A DNA stretch of 20,492 nt from a virus, in the IMG/VR virus record IMGVR_UViG_3300046798_000010, positions 1 through 20,492 of that record; one strand, given 5' to 3'. The stretch's first letter is position 1, and each line of letters starts with the position of its first letter. A program made the position numbers and the translations under genes. This document shows positions 3,321-14,991 of this stretch, piece by piece. The notes under the pieces were generated by a model. That model saw nothing but the letters and a program-made list of their open reading frames with translations. It did not search any database and was not told where the DNA came from.

Positions 3321-5258
3321 GTGCTCGTCACCCTCGTGTCGGTCACTATCGATCTCGATCTGGAAGTTAAGAGCGCGACCACGACCGGCCGTAGCTTTCG
3401 CGGCATGGCCTCGACGCCGTCGCTCGACTCGCATGATCAGAGCGTCGACCCGCTCGGGTTGACCTACCAGAACCCGGTGCCGTTGTTGCTCAACCACGAT
3501 CAACGCGTGCCGGTCGGCTCGGTGGTATTCGGCCAAGCGACCGCCGCGGGGTTGCCGTTCGACGCCACGATCCCGACGGTCAACGAACCGGGCACCCTCA
3601 AGGAACTCACCGATCTCGCGGCGCATATGGTCGCGCACCGCTTGATCCGCAACGTCTCGATCGGCATGTTGACCAAGTCGGTCGCGCCGCTCGCCAAAGG
3701 TTTGCGGATCCTCGCCGCCGAAGTGCGCGAGATGTCTCTCGCCGCGGTGCCCGCGAACCTCGACGCCGCGATCCTCTCGATTAAAAGCGCGTCCGCTGTG
3801 ACTCCCGCAACCCCGGCCGCGTCTGGCCATGTGCACTTACGAGCGCGCAAGGACGCGCCACACATGGAAAACAAGTTCATTCCCGACGCGATCAAGGACA
3901 CCGAAAACCACCGCGCCGCGACGCACGCGCGCATGACCGAACTTATGAGCAAGTCGCACGAGGCGGGGTTGACGTTAGAGGGCACCGAGAGCGAGGAATA
4001 CGACCGGCTCGCCGACGACCTCACCAAAACCGACGCGCACCTACTCCGGCTCAAGTCGTTGGAAGCGAGCAACGTCGCCGCGGCCACACCGATCGCCCCG
4101 ATCGCGCGGATCAAAACCGCGAGCGATTTGCGCGGCGGGATCGTGACGGTCAAACCGAACGTGCCGCCGGGCACCGCGTTTGTGCGTCTCGCGTGCGCAA
4201 AACTCGTCTGCAACGGCAACGTGTTTGAGGCCGCGGAATATGCCAAGCGGTGGGATGACTCGACCCCCGAGGTCGCGCTCGCGCTCAAGGCGGCGGTCGC
4301 GCCGGGCACGGCGACTGACGCAACGTGGGCGTCGCCCCTCGTCAACCAAGGGATCTCGGCCGACTTTATCGAGTTACTCCGCGCCGCGACGATCCTCGGC
4401 AACATCCCGAACTTGCGTAAGGTGCCGTTTAACACCAAGGTGCCCGCACAGAGCGCGGGCGGCACGTATGGATGGGTGGGAGAAGCCAAGCCCAAGCCGG
4501 TGACCAAACTTGCCTTTACGAGCACCGCGCTTGGCATTGCCAAGGCCGCGGGGATCATCGTGCTCACCGAGGAACTGGTGCGCCTCTCGAACCCCTCGGC
4601 CGAGGAACTCGTGCGCAAGGATATGATCGACGGGATCGCGCGGTTCCTCGATGCGCAGTTTATTGATCCCGCGGTCGCGGCGGTCGCGGGCGTCAACCCC
4701 GCGTCAATCACCAACGGCGCGCCGACCGCGGCGGCAACGGCCAACCCGCTCGCCGACATTCTCGGGTTGATCAACCACTTTGCCACGAACAACATCAGCG
4801 TTGACGGGTTGACGTTCATCATGAACGCGGCCAACGCGCTCGCGTTGTCGTTCCGCTCGAACTTGGACGGCTCGCCGCAATTCCCCGGGATCACCATCAA
4901 CGGTGGCTCGTGGAAAGGCCTCAACTTTGTGGTGAGCAACACCGTGACGACCAACGTGGTCGCGTTGCAACCGCAGTTGATCTTGTATGCCGACGAGGGC
5001 GGCGTGACGATCGACGCGTCGCGCGAGGCGTCGTTGCAGATGGACAGTGCGCCGATGTCCCCCGCGGACGCGACCACGGTCTACGTCTCGTTGTGGCAGA
5101 CCAATTCGGTCGGTCTACGGGCCGAACGGTTTGTGAACTGGCTCCGCGCCAACCCCAACGCCGTGAAGTATCTGACCGCGGCGGCATGGCCCGCGCCAGC
5201 GGGCACGACGTTGGCCGCTGAGGAAGCGCCGACACGTAGCACCGGCAAGGGCGCGTAA
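3321..5258 (+). CDS. fused prohead protease and HK97-fold major capsid protein
   Basis: One 645-aa frame carries two head proteins. Residues 1 to about 155 are a prohead serine protease of the HK97 (U35) type: H59 in LLLNHD, S113 in NVSIGM and E137 in VREMSLAAVPAN fit its catalytic positions. A linker (about 156-181) follows. Residues 182-250 are helical and charged like a delta/scaffold domain. Residues of about 285-640 are the HK97 capsid fold, with 'GWVGEAKPKP' and 'TEELVRLSNPSAEELVRKDM' typical of it. In most relatives protease and capsid are separate genes. An in-frame ATG at 3864 with AAGGA ten bases upstream could yield capsid alone. The GTG 3321 start has only a weak ribosome-binding site. 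Confidence 0.93.
   Translation: MLVTLVSVTIDLDLEVKSATTTGRSFRGMASTPSLDSHDQSVDPLGLTYQNPVPLLLNHDQRVPVGSVVFGQATAAGLPFDATIPTVNEPGTLKELTDLAAHMVAHRLIRNVSIGMLTKSVAPLAKGLRILAAEVREMSLAAVPANLDAAILSIKSASAVTPATPAASGHVHLRARKDAPHMENKFIPDAIKDTENHRAATHARMTELMSKSHEAGLTLEGTESEEYDRLADDLTKTDAHLLRLKSLEASNVAAATPIAPIARIKTASDLRGGIVTVKPNVPPGTAFVRLACAKLVCNGNVFEAAEYAKRWDDSTPEVALALKAAVAPGTATDATWASPLVNQGISADFIELLRAATILGNIPNLRKVPFNTKVPAQSAGGTYGWVGEAKPKPVTKLAFTSTALGIAKAAGIIVLTEELVRLSNPSAEELVRKDMIDGIARFLDAQFIDPAVAAVAGVNPASITNGAPTAAATANPLADILGLINHFATNNISVDGLTFIMNAANALALSFRSNLDGSPQFPGITINGGSWKGLNFVVSNTVTTNVVALQPQLILYADEGGVTIDASREASLQMDSAPMSPADATTVYVSLWQTNSVGLRAERFVNWLRANPNAVKYLTAAAWPAPAGTTLAAEEAPTRSTGKGA
3849..3866 (+). promoter_or_regulatory. 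possible internal translation start for the capsid part
   Basis: AAGGA at 3849-3853 is followed, after 10 bases, by an in-frame ATG at 3864 exactly at the junction between the protease linker and the charged scaffold-like segment. Starting here would make a 464-aa protein of ordinary HK97-type capsid precursor size. The spacing is slightly long, so this is a candidate only. Confidence 0.35.
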
Positions 5259-8315: not shown

Positions 8316-8770
8316 ATCCGTCGGTGGTCGACGAGGCGCTCGTCGCCGTGTTGCAAAACGATACGGCGATCAAGGGGTTGTTGCCCGATGGCGTGTATTG
8401 GGACGTGGCACCACCGGCCGCGGTCGCGTTTGCGGTCGTGTCGCTCGTGACGGGCGGCGGCGTCTCGGTGTTCGGCGGGCGCGTGATTGACGACACGTTG
8501 TATGCCGTGAAGGCGGTCGTGCGCGACGGGCATGGATCGATCGCGTCCGCGGCGGCGGCAATCGACGCGGTGCTCGACGAGGGCACGTTGAGCGTCACCG
8601 GGTTTGAGGCGATGTATCGCGACGACCTCGACGGGCGGATCCGTTTCACCGAGATCGACGACTTCGACCGGGCCATTCGTTGGCAACACCGCGGCGCGCG
8701 TTACCACGTGCAGATCTCACACGACCCGATCGGCGTGACGCGGTCGGTCTTATTGGAGCAACGACGATGA
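8303..8770 (+). CDS. tail terminator / tail completion protein
   Basis: The 155-aa product resembles DUF3168-like tail terminator proteins that cap the tail tube and join it to the head. Visible features are 'VVDEALVAVLQNDTAIKGLLPDGVYWDVAPP', the typical 'L-x-x-D-x-x-I-x-x-L-x-x-G-V-Y' opening. Also present are 'VAFAVVSLVTGG', 'DDTLYAVKAVVRDG', and 'ASAAAAIDAVLDEGTL'. The start ATG lies inside the previous gene, a 13-base overlap. The stop overlaps the ATG of the tail tube gene. The gene order supports the call. Confidence 0.8.
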   Translation: MGVVDPSVVDEALVAVLQNDTAIKGLLPDGVYWDVAPPAAVAFAVVSLVTGGGVSVFGGRVIDDTLYAVKAVVRDGHGSIASAAAAIDAVLDEGTLSVTGFEAMYRDDLDGRIRFTEIDDFDRAIRWQHRGARYHVQISHDPIGVTRSVLLEQRR

Positions 8771-9171
8771 TCAAAACCGGACGTTACGGGAAAGTCAGTT
8801 GGGATCCGGCGGGGACCACGCCCGTCGAAGTGATCTCGTTAAACGCGTGGAAGCTCTCGATGAAAACAGAGTACGAGGACGTAACCTGTTTCAACGATGG
8901 CAATAAGGTCTACGTGCCCGGGATGCCTGATGTGTCAGGTAGCCTAGGTGGTTTTTTTAATGCGTCGAGCCTCGTGATCATTGATGCCGCATTTGATGCC
9001 ACGGTGCCGGGCATGTTGGCGTTAATGCCCAACCGCAACGAAACCGGGATCGAGTTCTCGGGGTTGGCGTATCTCGACGCCGATATCGACGCGTCCCTCG
9101 GCGCGCCGAAGCTGGCGAGTAACTTTCGCGCGGCCGGAACATGGGACATTCCCACCACGCCCGTGCCGTGA
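8767..9171 (+). CDS. major tail tube protein
   Basis: The 134-aa product is beta-rich and sits between the tail terminator and the assembly chaperone, the standard position of the tail tube subunit. It starts 'KTGRYGKVSWDP' and has the 'ISLNAWKLSMKTEYEDVTCFNDGNKVYVPGMPDVSGSL' region, typical of small tube proteins: a strand, a charged loop, then a strand with G-S-L. The C-terminus ends with 'NFRAAGTWDIP'. A stretch near 8890-8970 is less GC-rich than neighbours and includes a T7 run at 8952-8958 (in-frame T_TTT_TTT). Function is inferred from position and pattern; homology is not proven here. Confidence 0.75.
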   Translation: MIKTGRYGKVSWDPAGTTPVEVISLNAWKLSMKTEYEDVTCFNDGNKVYVPGMPDVSGSLGGFFNASSLVIIDAAFDATVPGMLALMPNRNETGIEFSGLAYLDADIDASLGAPKLASNFRAAGTWDIPTTPVP

Positions 9172-9469: not shown

Positions 9470-9937
9470 ATGACCGACGGCACCCGATCCCGCTTCGTGC
9501 AACCGCTCGAACGCGTGTTGACGCTCGACAACGGCGATACGTTGACCGTGCGGCGCCGCCTCACGGCGGGCGAACAAATGGATATGTTCGGCCGCTTGTA
9601 TTCGGCGCACGGTAACGGGGGCGGGGCGTTGCGCCTCAACCCGGTGCAAACCGGGTTTGCGTTGATCGTCGCGTATCTGATCGATTGGAGTTTTGCCGAC
9701 GCGCACGGCGCGAAAGTGATCATCCGCGGCGAGCCGCTCGCGGTCGTCGAGGCCGCGATCCGGATGCTCGACCCGGATGATTTTCAAGAGGTCAAGCGCG
9801 CCGTCGAACTACACGACGCCGAGGTCGTCGCCGAGCGGGCCACAGTAAAAAAAACCCCGAATGGCGACGACGGATCGAAAGCGATCTCCGAGTCGCGATC
9901 CGGTGTGGGTGGCGCGTCGAGTGGGTTCGCGAATTAG
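9470..9937 (+). CDS. tail assembly chaperone, unshifted product (gpG-like)
   Basis: The 155-aa product is encoded directly upstream of the tape measure gene, the place of the lambda G-type assembly chaperone. It contains 'RVLTLDNGDTLTVRRRLTAGEQMDMF', then a helical, mixed central portion with 'LIVAYLIDWSF' and 'MLDPDDFQEVKRAVELHDAEVVAE'. At residues 127-128 an AAA-AAA pair forms a slippery heptamer (9847-9853). Translation without slippage adds 27 residues (ending SSGFAN). The start ATG 9470 follows the previous stop by four bases. The chaperone binds the tape measure during tail assembly; that role is inferred from position. Confidence 0.82.
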   Translation: MTDGTRSRFVQPLERVLTLDNGDTLTVRRRLTAGEQMDMFGRLYSAHGNGGGALRLNPVQTGFALIVAYLIDWSFADAHGAKVIIRGEPLAVVEAAIRMLDPDDFQEVKRAVELHDAEVVAERATVKKTPNGDDGSKAISESRSGVGGASSGFAN

Positions 9938-10056
9938 ATCTCGACGATTACGCCGTGTTGTTGGAGATGCTCAACGCCGAGGCGAAAGGCACGCGCGACG
10001 ATGACGACGACGAGCCGAGCGACGACCCCGACGCAGTGATCGAGGATCATGGCTGA
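9470..10056 (+). CDS. tail assembly chaperone, predicted -1 frameshift product (gpGT-like)
   Basis: A -1 slip on A_AAA_AAA (9847-9853) moves reading so that base 9853 is read twice, then continues through 67 more codons to the TGA at 10054-10056. The added part reads 'NPEWRRRIESD...' and includes 'WRVEWVRELDLDDYAVLLEM' and a strongly acidic tail of repeated Asp. That is typical of the T extension of gpGT-like chaperones. The joint product would be 195 aa. It overlaps the tape measure ATG (10049) by eight bases. The two segments are 9470-9853 and 9853-10056. The shift efficiency is unknown. Confidence 0.85.
9847..9895 (+). promoter_or_regulatory. programmed -1 frameshift site with downstream stem-loop
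   Basis: The slippery sequence A_AAA_AAA lies in frame at 9847-9853 within an A8 run. Eleven bases further on, a hairpin can form: an outer stem CGAC/GTCG (9865-9868 with 9892-9895) and an inner stem GATCG/CGATC (9873-9877 with 9882-9886) closed by an AAAG loop. Such structures can stimulate slippage. The spacing is a little longer than the usual 5-9 bases. Confidence 0.75.
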
Positions 10057-12292
10057 ACCTCTGAGCGGCACCCTCGGCGCCGACTTTTCCAAGTTTGTCG
10101 ACGAGTGCGCCAAGTCGGTCGCGGCGCTCGAAGCGATCAAAGCCACGTCCGAGCGCATGGTCGGCTCGCTCGATCAGGTCGTCAAGGCGACCGACGACAA
10201 CGCGATCTCATTTACCAAACTCACCGCGTCGTATGTGAGCGGGCAAGCGATCCTCAACGCCGTGTCGGCGACGTGGGAGACGCTGACCGGGTTCATGGGT
10301 GACGCCGTCGCCGCGGCCAACGAGAGCGAGGCGGCACAGGTCAAACTCAACGCGGCGTTGACGGCGCAAGGCACCAACATGCCGAGCGTCGTCGCCGCGT
10401 ATGAGCAATACGCCCGCACGTTGCAAGCGACGACCACCTTTAGCGACGACGCCGTGACCGCGGCTGAGGGCGTGCTCGTGACCATCGGGCAGGTCATGCC
10501 GCGCGATATGAAAAAGGCGCTCGACGCGAGCGCCGACCTTGCCGCGGGGTTGGGTAAGACGTTGCCCGAGGCGGCGACGATGCTCTCGAAAGCGATCGAG
10601 GGGAACGCGGGCGCGCTCAAGTCGGCCGGGATCAACTTCGCCGACGCGGGCAAAGAGGCCGTGTCATTCGATCAAATCATCGGCGCCATCAATGACAAGT
10701 TTGAGGGGCAAGCGAGCGCCGCCGCGGACACCTACGCGGGCAAGGTCAAGCAACTGGAAAATGAGTGGTCGTCGTTGCTCACGACGATCGGCAAGTATGT
10801 GACGACTAACCCGGTCGTGAAGGCGGCGATCGACGAGGTCACGCGGTTGCTCGGGTCGCAGAATGACAAACTCGGCGACAACAAGAAAGCGGTCGACTTT
10901 GTCTCTGAGGCGGTGATCTTTTTTGCCAAGGCGCTCGACACGGGCGTCGGCGCGGTCGGCGGGTTTGTCGGCGCCGCGTTGCGCATGCAATCGGACGTGC
11001 AGTTAACCGCGTCGGTGATCTATGGGTTCGTGGCCGATCTCGCCGAGGCGTGGCAAACGCTCGGCGCCATGGATCCAACGGGCGGATTTTTCACACCCGG
11101 GTATGAGGCGCAACTCGTCGCGGTCACGCAAGCGGCCGAGGGGTTCCGGCAACGCTCCGTTGAGTTGAGCGAGGCAAGCGGCGTTAACGCCGTGGCGGCG
11201 GGCCAATGGGATCAAGCGCTCGGCGGCGTGCGCTCGACGCTCGGCGACATGATTACCAAGCTAGAGGAAAGCCGCGACACGACCGCGCGTAACACGACCG
11301 CGACCAACGATCAAACCGGCGCATGGGATCGCGGCACGACCTCGTTGATGAATCGCGCCAAGGCGCAAGAGGATGCCGACAAAGCCGCGCGACGGGATAT
11401 CAAACTGTTAGAGGATGGGATCGCATGGGCCGAGGCGTTCTCCGCGGCGTATGCCAAATTGCAAGCGGACTATTACGCCGAGGTCGGCAAGGCGTCGGCG
11501 AACACGACCAAGGCACAGATCGATAACGCATGGGCCGCGGCCAATGCACAGATCGCGAGTATGGAGAAAGCCAAAACGCTCACGATCGATAACTACAATT
11601 TGATCATCGCGAAAGCCAACGCGACCGTCGACAACATTATCGCCAAGCGGTTGCAAGACGACGCCTCGACGATCGACCACTATCAGTTACTCGCGGCCAA
11701 GGCCGAGGAAGCCTACGGGTTCGCGCTCGCGCACTCCGACCACTACACCGCCGAGGCGATCAACAACTTGCGCGAGCAAGCCGACGTGGCCAACGAGCGG
11801 TTGACGTGGTGGCAAGACGCGGCCAACGCGTCCCTTGACAATGTCAAGGGCACGGCCAAAAGCACGGCCGACACGATCGGCGAGATTACGAAAAAGTTTG
11901 ACGAGGCGAGCGGCGCGGCGACGCGCTTTCAGGATGCGCAGAAAACGTCCACCTCGATCGCGGGTGGGTGGTTGCCCGAGGGCGCGAAGATCGTCGGCGA
12001 TCAATTGATTGGCCCACAGGGGCAGACGGTCAACCTCGTGTCGGCGGGCGGGTTCCTCAGCGGGGCCAAAGCGTTGCCGGACAATTGGCAAGCGACCTAT
12101 TACGGCGGGTTAGGGTTGGGCGGCGGGTGGAATGCGGCGGGCGCCAAGGCGTCGACCACGGTCAACGTCAACGCGGGCGCGGTCACGAATAATTACCCGA
12201 TCATGAACGACCCCAACGCCATGGATCAACTGGGGCGGATCGTCGGTGACGCCGTGATGAACCGCGTGACGCGAAGCGGGGCGCTCGTATGA
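10049..12292 (+). CDS. tape measure protein
   Basis: This protein sets tail length and may assist DNA entry. The 747-aa product is long, helical and Ala-rich, lies directly after the chaperone, and carries a recognised conserved block (about residues 130-200). That block is 'FSDDAVTAAEGVLVT' followed by 'DLAAGLGKTLPEAATMLSKA' and 'GALKSAGI', as in many tape measure proteins. Residues 285-312 are hydrophobic and Gly-rich, a possible membrane-active segment. At 0.15 nm per residue (a rule of thumb) the tail would be near 110 nm. The ATG overlaps the frameshift product's stop; the stop overlaps the hub start (ATGA). Confidence 0.9.
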   Translation: MAEPLSGTLGADFSKFVDECAKSVAALEAIKATSERMVGSLDQVVKATDDNAISFTKLTASYVSGQAILNAVSATWETLTGFMGDAVAAANESEAAQVKLNAALTAQGTNMPSVVAAYEQYARTLQATTTFSDDAVTAAEGVLVTIGQVMPRDMKKALDASADLAAGLGKTLPEAATMLSKAIEGNAGALKSAGINFADAGKEAVSFDQIIGAINDKFEGQASAAADTYAGKVKQLENEWSSLLTTIGKYVTTNPVVKAAIDEVTRLLGSQNDKLGDNKKAVDFVSEAVIFFAKALDTGVGAVGGFVGAALRMQSDVQLTASVIYGFVADLAEAWQTLGAMDPTGGFFTPGYEAQLVAVTQAAEGFRQRSVELSEASGVNAVAAGQWDQALGGVRSTLGDMITKLEESRDTTARNTTATNDQTGAWDRGTTSLMNRAKAQEDADKAARRDIKLLEDGIAWAEAFSAAYAKLQADYYAEVGKASANTTKAQIDNAWAAANAQIASMEKAKTLTIDNYNLIIAKANATVDNIIAKRLQDDASTIDHYQLLAAKAEEAYGFALAHSDHYTAEAINNLREQADVANERLTWWQDAANASLDNVKGTAKSTADTIGEITKKFDEASGAATRFQDAQKTSTSIAGGWLPEGAKIVGDQLIGPQGQTVNLVSAGGFLSGAKALPDNWQATYYGGLGLGGGWNAAGAKASTTVNVNAGAVTNNYPIMNDPNAMDQLGRIVGDAVMNRVTRSGALV

Positions 12293-14991
12293 GCACGTAT
12301 CCGGCGACGTGTTTACTCGGGCACCGCCTCAACGCGTTCCGCCTCAATTATCTCGTCGGCAAGATCCTGATCAACATCGGCGGCGCATGGACCGACGGCG
12401 CACAGGATTTTGTGATCGAGTCGCTCACGATCGCCGACCGCCTCAACGAAGTGCCCAATACGTTGATCGCCACGGTGCGCGGCGCCAAGCCGATCGAGGG
12501 GTCGATCGTGCGCGTGGTGATCGGGAGTCGCAACGGGCAACCGTTATTTGTCGGCAACGTGTTGCGCGTGACGCGCCGCTGGGCCGCGGCCAACCCCGCG
12601 CACGTGCTGTACGATATCGAGGCGATCGATCCCACATGGCGGCTGACGGCTAAACTCTTTTCAAATCGCTATCGCAACCTCTCGGCCTCGGTGATTGCGG
12701 CCGACGTGCTCACCTACGCGCCGTCGGGGTTCACGAGTCAGATTGAACCAAATTTACCAGTGCTCGACGAGATCACGTTCACGAACGTCAACATCATGGA
12801 CGCGTTCACGCAACTCGCCAACCGGATTGGCGGCTATACGCTCGTCGATTACAACGCGGTCGTGTATTTGTTCCGGACCCCGACCGTCGTGTCGCCGCCA
12901 ACGCCGCTCAATGCGGCGCACCCGTCTCTCGCGGGCGTGACCTATACACGCGACCTCTCACAGATCGTCACGCGCGCCCTCGTCGAGGGCGGCGGCGGCA
13001 ACGCGATCGCCAACGTGGCCGAGGGCGGCACGATCATTCCGGTCGACGTGATCGGGTGGTATCTCACGAGCGGGGGGCTCGTGCGGCCCGGTCCGCAATA
13101 TGTCGGCTATACGGGGATCCAACAAGGCGGCGCGGGCGCGTTTGCGGGCGAGGGCACGGTGCCCACGAGCGCGCCGAATGCGGCGTTGTATGGACACGTC
13201 GACGGGGCGGGCGTCGATCCCGGCGCGCACAGTTACGCGTATACGTGGATCACGGGGAACGGCCAATCGATCCCCTCGCCGGTGGCGACGGTGACGACCT
13301 CGGGACCGCCGCCCGCGATGACGCCCGGCCCGGTGCTCGCGAATGAAACCAACGCGGGGTATTTTGGCAACCTGATCGCGAACGCCGATTACGTCTACGC
13401 GCATACGTTCACGACCGCGGCCACGTATAACGATTTGGATCCCACGAAAGAAAGCGCGTTGTCGGTGCCGAGTCAAATCCGCACGATCGCGCGCGCGCAA
13501 CCGGCCGCGCCGCGGCTCGCGAGTGAAACCACGGGCGGCGGATCGTTCGTGGTCGGCGCGACCTACTATTGGGCCTTTCAGTTTTCCGCGGCGCCCGAGT
13601 ATGCGACGCTCGATCCGGCGTTGCTCTCGCCGTTGTCGGCGCTCGGGTGGTATACCCCGACGCCGCCGCCGCCCGGCGCGCCGGGGAGTGCGACATCGGC
13701 GGGCGTCTCGGTGTTTTTCCCGTGCCCCGCGGGCGGGCCGTTTCGGTGGATCCACTTTTTCCGCGGCGCCGCGAATGCCGGACCCGAGACGCTGCGCCAT
13801 TATCCGAGCGGCCCGATCGCGTATCCGTCGCAGGGGGGCGAACAATACTTCCGCGACTTTGGCGGGCCGACCGATGCCGGGGGCGTGCCGACCGTGACGG
13901 GGGCGCAACAAGTCGGCGTCCGCATTGCCGGACCGGCCGCAACGCCGTATACGTTTATTCACTTGTGGCGCTCACCGGCCAACGGTGGCGCGGGCGCGCT
14001 CAAGTGGATCAACGTGGCGTTGCCGTTCCTGCCGGGTGCTGAACAGTATTACCGCGACGGCGGCGCCGACGGCACGTTGACCGGGAACACGCCGCCCGCG
14101 CAAGGGCAAAGCATTAATCAAGTGATGGTCACGGGGATCGCGCCGGGGCCGTTGGGCGTGACGCAACGCTATCTCTACCGCACCGCCGCAGGGTCGTCGC
14201 AGTTGCGCCTAATCACGGCGTTAGGCGACAACACGACGACGGCATACCTCGACCTCATCCCCGACACGAATTTGCAGGGCAACGCGCCGACGGTCGACAC
14301 GTCGGGCATTATTCAAACCGCGAAATTGATCTCGGCGGGGTCGACGTCGATGACGATGACCAGCACCGCGCCATTTTCCGCGACGGGCGGCTATGTGATC
14401 GTCAATCAACAAGTGATCCGCTATACGGGCGTGACGGCGACGGCGTTGGTTGGGATCCCGCCGTTCGGCGACGGGGCGATCCTGCAATCGATCCCATGGG
14501 GCACGCCCGTAACCGCGGCGCCCGCGTTGGTCGGCGTGTCGGGCGTGAAGTATCCGATCCGCAAGGGCGATCAAATCAATGTGCTGGCCGTGGTCGAGGA
14601 CGCCGCGGCGCAACAGGCGCTCGCCGCCTTGATTGGCGGCAACGGCGTGCGCGAATCCTTGTTACAGGATGGGCGCATTTCGATCACCGAGGCGACGGCG
14701 CGCGGGCGCGCGTTACTGGCGGCGCACAAGGACGTGCTTGAAACGTTCGCGCACCGCTCGCGGGATCCGCTGACGCGCTCGGGCGCGACCGTCACGGTCG
14801 ACCTACCGGCGCCCACCGACATTCACGGCGCCTTCCGCTTGCAGGATGTGACGATCGCCCACTTCAACGGGCGCGGGTTGGTGATGCCCACGTATGACGC
14901 CCGATCGTCGTCGCAACGCTTCACGTTTGAGGATCTCGTGCGCCAGATGGCGAACACCACGCCGCCGCCCGCGACCGGAGAGGATCGCTAG
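12289..14991 (+). CDS. tail tip / baseplate hub protein with large repeat insertion
   Basis: The 900-aa product begins with about 235 residues resembling the gpD/gp27-like hub fold: a barrel-type start 'DRLNEVPNTLIATVRG', 'PLFVGNVLRVTR', 'YDIEAIDPTWRLTAKL' and a helix 'MDAFTQLANRIGGYTLVD'. A hub-like end (about 745-900: 'ARGRALLAAHKDVLETF', 'GATVTVDLPAP') follows. Between them lies a long beta-rich insertion (about 290-690). It holds three fibronectin-like units (each with Y-x-Y/W, then P-x-S-x-x-S) near residues 315, 365 and 423, and three units with an 'IH-x-x-R/YLYRT' core near 490, 558 and 628 that end G-x-x-P-T/P. The insertion is probably exposed and may bind host glycans. The name is inferred from pattern and position. 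Confidence 0.7.
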   Translation: MSTYPATCLLGHRLNAFRLNYLVGKILINIGGAWTDGAQDFVIESLTIADRLNEVPNTLIATVRGAKPIEGSIVRVVIGSRNGQPLFVGNVLRVTRRWAAANPAHVLYDIEAIDPTWRLTAKLFSNRYRNLSASVIAADVLTYAPSGFTSQIEPNLPVLDEITFTNVNIMDAFTQLANRIGGYTLVDYNAVVYLFRTPTVVSPPTPLNAAHPSLAGVTYTRDLSQIVTRALVEGGGGNAIANVAEGGTIIPVDVIGWYLTSGGLVRPGPQYVGYTGIQQGGAGAFAGEGTVPTSAPNAALYGHVDGAGVDPGAHSYAYTWITGNGQSIPSPVATVTTSGPPPAMTPGPVLANETNAGYFGNLIANADYVYAHTFTTAATYNDLDPTKESALSVPSQIRTIARAQPAAPRLASETTGGGSFVVGATYYWAFQFSAAPEYATLDPALLSPLSALGWYTPTPPPPGAPGSATSAGVSVFFPCPAGGPFRWIHFFRGAANAGPETLRHYPSGPIAYPSQGGEQYFRDFGGPTDAGGVPTVTGAQQVGVRIAGPAATPYTFIHLWRSPANGGAGALKWINVALPFLPGAEQYYRDGGADGTLTGNTPPAQGQSINQVMVTGIAPGPLGVTQRYLYRTAAGSSQLRLITALGDNTTTAYLDLIPDTNLQGNAPTVDTSGIIQTAKLISAGSTSMTMTSTAPFSATGGYVIVNQQVIRYTGVTATALVGIPPFGDGAILQSIPWGTPVTAAPALVGVSGVKYPIRKGDQINVLAVVEDAAAQQALAALIGGNGVRESLLQDGRISITEATARGRALLAAHKDVLETFAHRSRDPLTRSGATVTVDLPAPTDIHGAFRLQDVTIAHFNGRGLVMPTYDARSSSQRFTFEDLVRQMANTTPPPATGEDR

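Follow-up and report, generated by a model that had tools for sequence, protein, structure and literature searches.

The slippery heptamer of phage lambda is G_GGA_AAG, and a downstream stimulatory RNA structure is common in G/GT frameshifts without being obligatory. In lambda, the genes follow the order G, T, tape measure, T overlaps G, and a -1 slip near the 3' end of G gives a short and a long product from one start, a scheme that is general among long-tailed phages (PMC5009743). Neither of the two lambda proteins is present in the virion (PMC5009743). The reported shift site in the g-t genes of the haloarchaeal tailed virus HCTV-2 is A_AAA_AAC, and in E. coli A_AAA_AAG is shiftier than A_AAA_AAA or A_AAA_AAC (PMC5009743). 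HK97-like chaperone genes showed frameshifting under 10% (7%) in tests, and the shift in E. coli dnaX is stimulated by a Shine-Dalgarno-like element and a hairpin (PMC3711429). Gene callers overlook joined tail chaperones, although these are a routine item of annotation (PMC10885494).

We analysed a stretch of 20,492 bases from an IMG/VR virus record (hereafter the window; G+C content 65%), in which a long-tailed phage very probably encodes its tail assembly chaperones G and GT, through a -1 frameshift, at positions 9470-10056 of the + strand. The locus resembles lambda in gene order, in the overlap of T with G, in its predicted short and long products from one start and in the position of the slip near the 3' end of G; it differs in its heptamer, A_AAA_AAA, and no sequence similarity to the lambda genes was shown. 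As in dnaX, an A-rich heptamer would be read by lysyl-tRNA, whereas neither of the two dnaX stimulators is supported in the window. The likeness to HCTV-2, which has an archaeal host, lies in the shift site, found in 43 of 139 relatives.

The G gene runs on the + strand from the ATG at 9470 to the TAG at 9935-9937 and encodes a 155-residue product. Its junction reads ACA GTA AAA AAA ACC, with eight As at 9847-9854, and A_AAA_AAA (9847-9853, + strand) lies in phase with the open reading frame. After the slip the -1 frame reads AAC CCC GAA TGG ... GGC over 67 codons (9853-10053) and stops at the TGA in 10054-10056, so that the T extension (9853-10056, + strand) overlaps by 8 nt the tape measure gene, whose ATG lies at 10049. 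The joined product GT (9470-9853 joined to 9853-10056, + strand) would comprise 195 residues, 128 in common with G and 67 from the -1 frame, and the unshifted 0-frame tail after the heptamer measures 27 residues. The first-pass annotation had given this heptamer exactly to the base, and its length for the open -1 frame and the stop 8 nt inside the tape measure gene agree with our coordinates. It had also described the extension as T-like and acidic: the peptide it quoted is present, and the extension is acidic in its C-terminal tail, DDDDDEPSDDPD, and basic where it begins. It had further stated that no other poly-T or poly-A heptamer of the window is followed by an extension of this sort, which is true in kind. 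The eight-A run is the longest A or T run of the window and contains its sole in-frame A heptamer; the in-frame T heptamers in terL (2525) and in the portal gene (5920) are followed by 50 and 35 open -1 codons and lie well within their genes. By length alone the statement does not hold, since AAATTTA at 12750, in frame within a 900-residue open reading frame, opens 196 codons in the -1 frame.

The left part of the window is a phage structural module, in the order terminase, capsid with protease, portal, head closure, tail completion and major tail protein (8680-9171, + strand; PHROG 9522, E 8e-6; PHROG 10528, E 1.2e-5). The major tail protein gene is followed by a 96-residue open reading frame, G, a 747-residue open reading frame (10049-12292, + strand) and further open reading frames. 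The 747-residue product matched tape measure families, though weakly (PHROG 3779, E 0.021; Pfam TMP_3, E 0.008), and was called a tape measure protein from these matches together with its place and its length. G thus has the major tail protein gene upstream and the tape measure gene downstream, as expected of G/GT chaperones, and in nearly all relatives a long open reading frame begins within a few bases of the T stop. Within the same module, the N-terminal part of the 645-residue capsid product (3321-5258) matches a head maturation protease profile, and protease and capsid seem, from this match, to be fused. By the protein of this capsid gene the nearest phage record is Rhizobium phage RHph_X2_26 (39.5%). 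The gene preceding the tape measure gene in that phage (L084:12360-12932) is annotated as 'tail tube protein' and encodes 190 residues; it contains no -1 heptamer in frame and may encode a chaperone made without a shift.

A model of the G product was built together with 65 relatives and had a mean pLDDT of 87.6. Against viral models, its best named matches were tail assembly chaperones (E 2.9e-5 to 7e-4), and the Mu FS-gp41 model was matched with an E of 2.6e-3. No solved structure was returned under E 0.4 by a Foldseek search of the PDB, and a sequence search of the PDB gave no match; the HK97 chaperone (2ob9) emerged on realignment to solved chains, where it ranked first with a Z of 5.3, the next, unrelated chain reaching 3.1. 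This best solved match covers 94 residues with an rmsd of 4.4 and differs from the window's G in sequence, with 8% identity across the structural alignment. The predicted fold of G is therefore chaperone-like at moderate scores, a Z of 5.3 being modest alone, and it is the agreement of name, place and fold that carries weight. The T part was modelled as a small helical domain. Family-profile matches were weak, with none to the window's own G; PHROG 1442 (tail assembly chaperone) was matched by T in 14 of 37 members, with a best E of 0.0088.

A search with G returned one near relative, at 69% identity and with an identical sequence in two assemblies, which carries nine As in the same phase and a -1 frame that reaches the start of the tape measure gene. 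The -1 extension is much better conserved than G. A first scan of viral contigs with the T extension gave 85 stretches, and scans with patterns devoid of lysine codons gave 157 and 194 confirmed stretches; the best 80 loci of each scan were fetched, some contigs twice, and the 187 fetched loci with a heptamer correspond to 139 distinct junctions. All 139 distinct junctions with a readable site carry A_AAA_AAN in phase (91 AAA, 43 AAC, 4 AAG and 1 AAT), and in all of them the G frame extends upstream of the heptamer for 90 or more codons without a stop. Beyond these, only one relative, L044:1-60, has no A heptamer in frame; 43 bases separate its junction from a contig end, and an assembly fault is the likely cause. 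Relatives in which the site is missing and the T frame interrupted were sought among these loci and none was found. With 139 distinct junctions preserving both heptamer and extension, their association is not due to chance. Among cultivated phages, tblastn of G, T and the tape measure protein against 50,697 phage records gave no match. A genome collection searched with G returned no relative and, searched with T, returned one, on a contig of a Propionibacteriaceae metagenome-assembled genome with A_AAA_AAC; 197 genomes of the Propionibacteriaceae gave no further hit.

The lengths of the A runs bear on the nature of the slip. Some bacterial genes are known to undergo polymerase slippage at runs of 8-9 As, and an RNA polymerase adding or dropping As could produce altered messages from which GT is translated, either alone or beside ribosomal slippage. 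The window has eight As and 66 of the 139 distinct junctions have nine, the remainder being distributed over six (21), seven (21) and eight (31), with none longer; this ceiling may be an upper limit set against polymerase slippage or mutation. However, the 42 junctions with six or seven As keep an in-phase X_XXY_YYZ heptamer, in many cases A_AAA_AAC, and in other phages it is the ribosome that slips by -1 on tail chaperone genes (PMC5009743), making the transcriptional route improbable. Ribosomal -1 slippage at the heptamer is favoured by the phase, by the exact A_AAA_AAC in members with six As and by the precedent of lambda; on the runs of 8-9 As, in the window and in many relatives, the polymerase may also slip to some extent. 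We infer that the slippage is translational, and likewise its efficiency.

T might instead be a separate gene, or a frame open by chance and never joined to G by slippage, as -1 frames are often open in G+C-rich DNA and the window, at its G+C content, holds many long chance open reading frames. T is nevertheless conserved and selected, and the heptamer always stands at its head. Moreover, in 103 of the 139 junctions, the window among them, the T frame has no ATG, GTG or TTG after its upstream stop and before the heptamer; in some loci that stop lies as close as 2 codons upstream of the heptamer. We consider this explanation very improbable. The selection on T was measured in the overlap, where 25 independent pairs of sequences showed differences of 0.213 at third positions of the T frame, 0.059 at first and 0.053 at second positions. 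T-frame third, first and second positions correspond to 0-frame second, third and first positions, and the pattern is the opposite of that predicted for coding in the 0 frame. Because the differences concentrate on T-frame third positions, sequence comparison indicates that the -1 frame is the protein under selection in the overlap, and the 27-residue 0-frame tail would be mostly a by-product.

The 0-frame stop itself is nevertheless maintained. It falls at one fixed column in 64 of the 83 distinct loci of the first scans and in 82 of 138 overall, because it is formed by the codon chosen for the conserved Leu of 'VREL' together with the next residue: mostly CTA or TTA before Asp, creating TAG, and CTG or TTG before Ser, Asn or Thr, creating TGA. 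In the window, the T-frame Leu codon TTA (9934-9936) creates the TAG of G (9934-9937 in all, + strand). CTA and TTA account for 57% of the codons at this Leu, versus 0, 6 and 4% at three other Leu positions of T, and the Leu codon is coupled to the next residue with a Fisher p of 4e-10, a value uncorrected for shared ancestry. These biases indicate selection on the 0-frame stop of G, which is maintained through Leu codons of the -1 frame, CTA and TTA, that are otherwise rare. With the stop kept by selection, the short and the long product, G and GT, both appear to be needed. It is conceivable, if somewhat doubtful, that the stop is an independently selected part of the cassette about 80 nt past the heptamer, with either the length of the unshifted tail mattering or the terminating ribosome tuning the shift. 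A limited look at the literature found no earlier description of a selected 0-frame stop. An error of sequencing or assembly in the A run, by which G and T would truly be one frame, needs just one extra A to fuse them but is virtually discounted by the same frame offset in 139 distinct junctions with six to nine As and by the selective maintenance of the 0-frame stop.

A stem-loop at 9865-9895 had been put forward at first pass as a stimulator of the shift. A hairpin can indeed be drawn 10 nt past the heptamer (9864-9896, + strand), and the hand-picked stretch 9859-9900 folds at -16.8 kcal/mol with a z of -1.98. Its pairs are not conserved, 63.7% of cells pairing in the relatives against 63.5% in shuffles. 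Across the family, the first 45 nt past the heptamer are more stable than dinucleotide shuffles (mean z -1.07) and show no excess stability over synonymous T-frame variants (mean z about 0), so that the fold excess reflects the encoded protein, and the proposed role of the stem-loop is not supported. Two alternative family hairpins, TGGCGAGA/TCTCGCCA and GGCGA/TCGCC, were tested and found no support. A Shine-Dalgarno-like element showed a slight family excess at -9 to -6 and does not occur at that place in the window. The comparative analysis thus supports no stimulator of the shift, although one may exist.

In the mechanism we propose, most ribosomes would read the 0 frame to the TAG at 9935-9937 and release G, while a minority, with lysyl-tRNAs in the P and A sites at A_AAA_AAA, would slip back one base and produce GT, ending just within the tape measure gene. 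If they act as in lambda, both proteins would bind the tape measure protein through their G part, the T part would recruit the major tail protein, and the ratio of G to GT, set by the slip, would govern tail assembly; these roles are likewise what we infer for the window's proteins. The frameshift in the tail assembly chaperone, as claimed at first pass, is supported by the conservation of the heptamer, the selection on the -1 frame, the gene order and the fold, and the comparison of the -1 frame across homologues, which had been suggested there, bore it out.

The finding is correct and of an ordinary kind: the mechanism has been known since lambda, and the window is a further case, in a family that has no match in the phage records searched. 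Across a large group of uncultivated phages, it corrects how two proteins that ordinary gene calling overlooks are annotated. As a deep natural alignment, the 139 distinct junctions show a plain A heptamer that has persisted with no conserved stimulator detected beside it, and they make selection on the 0-frame stop visible.
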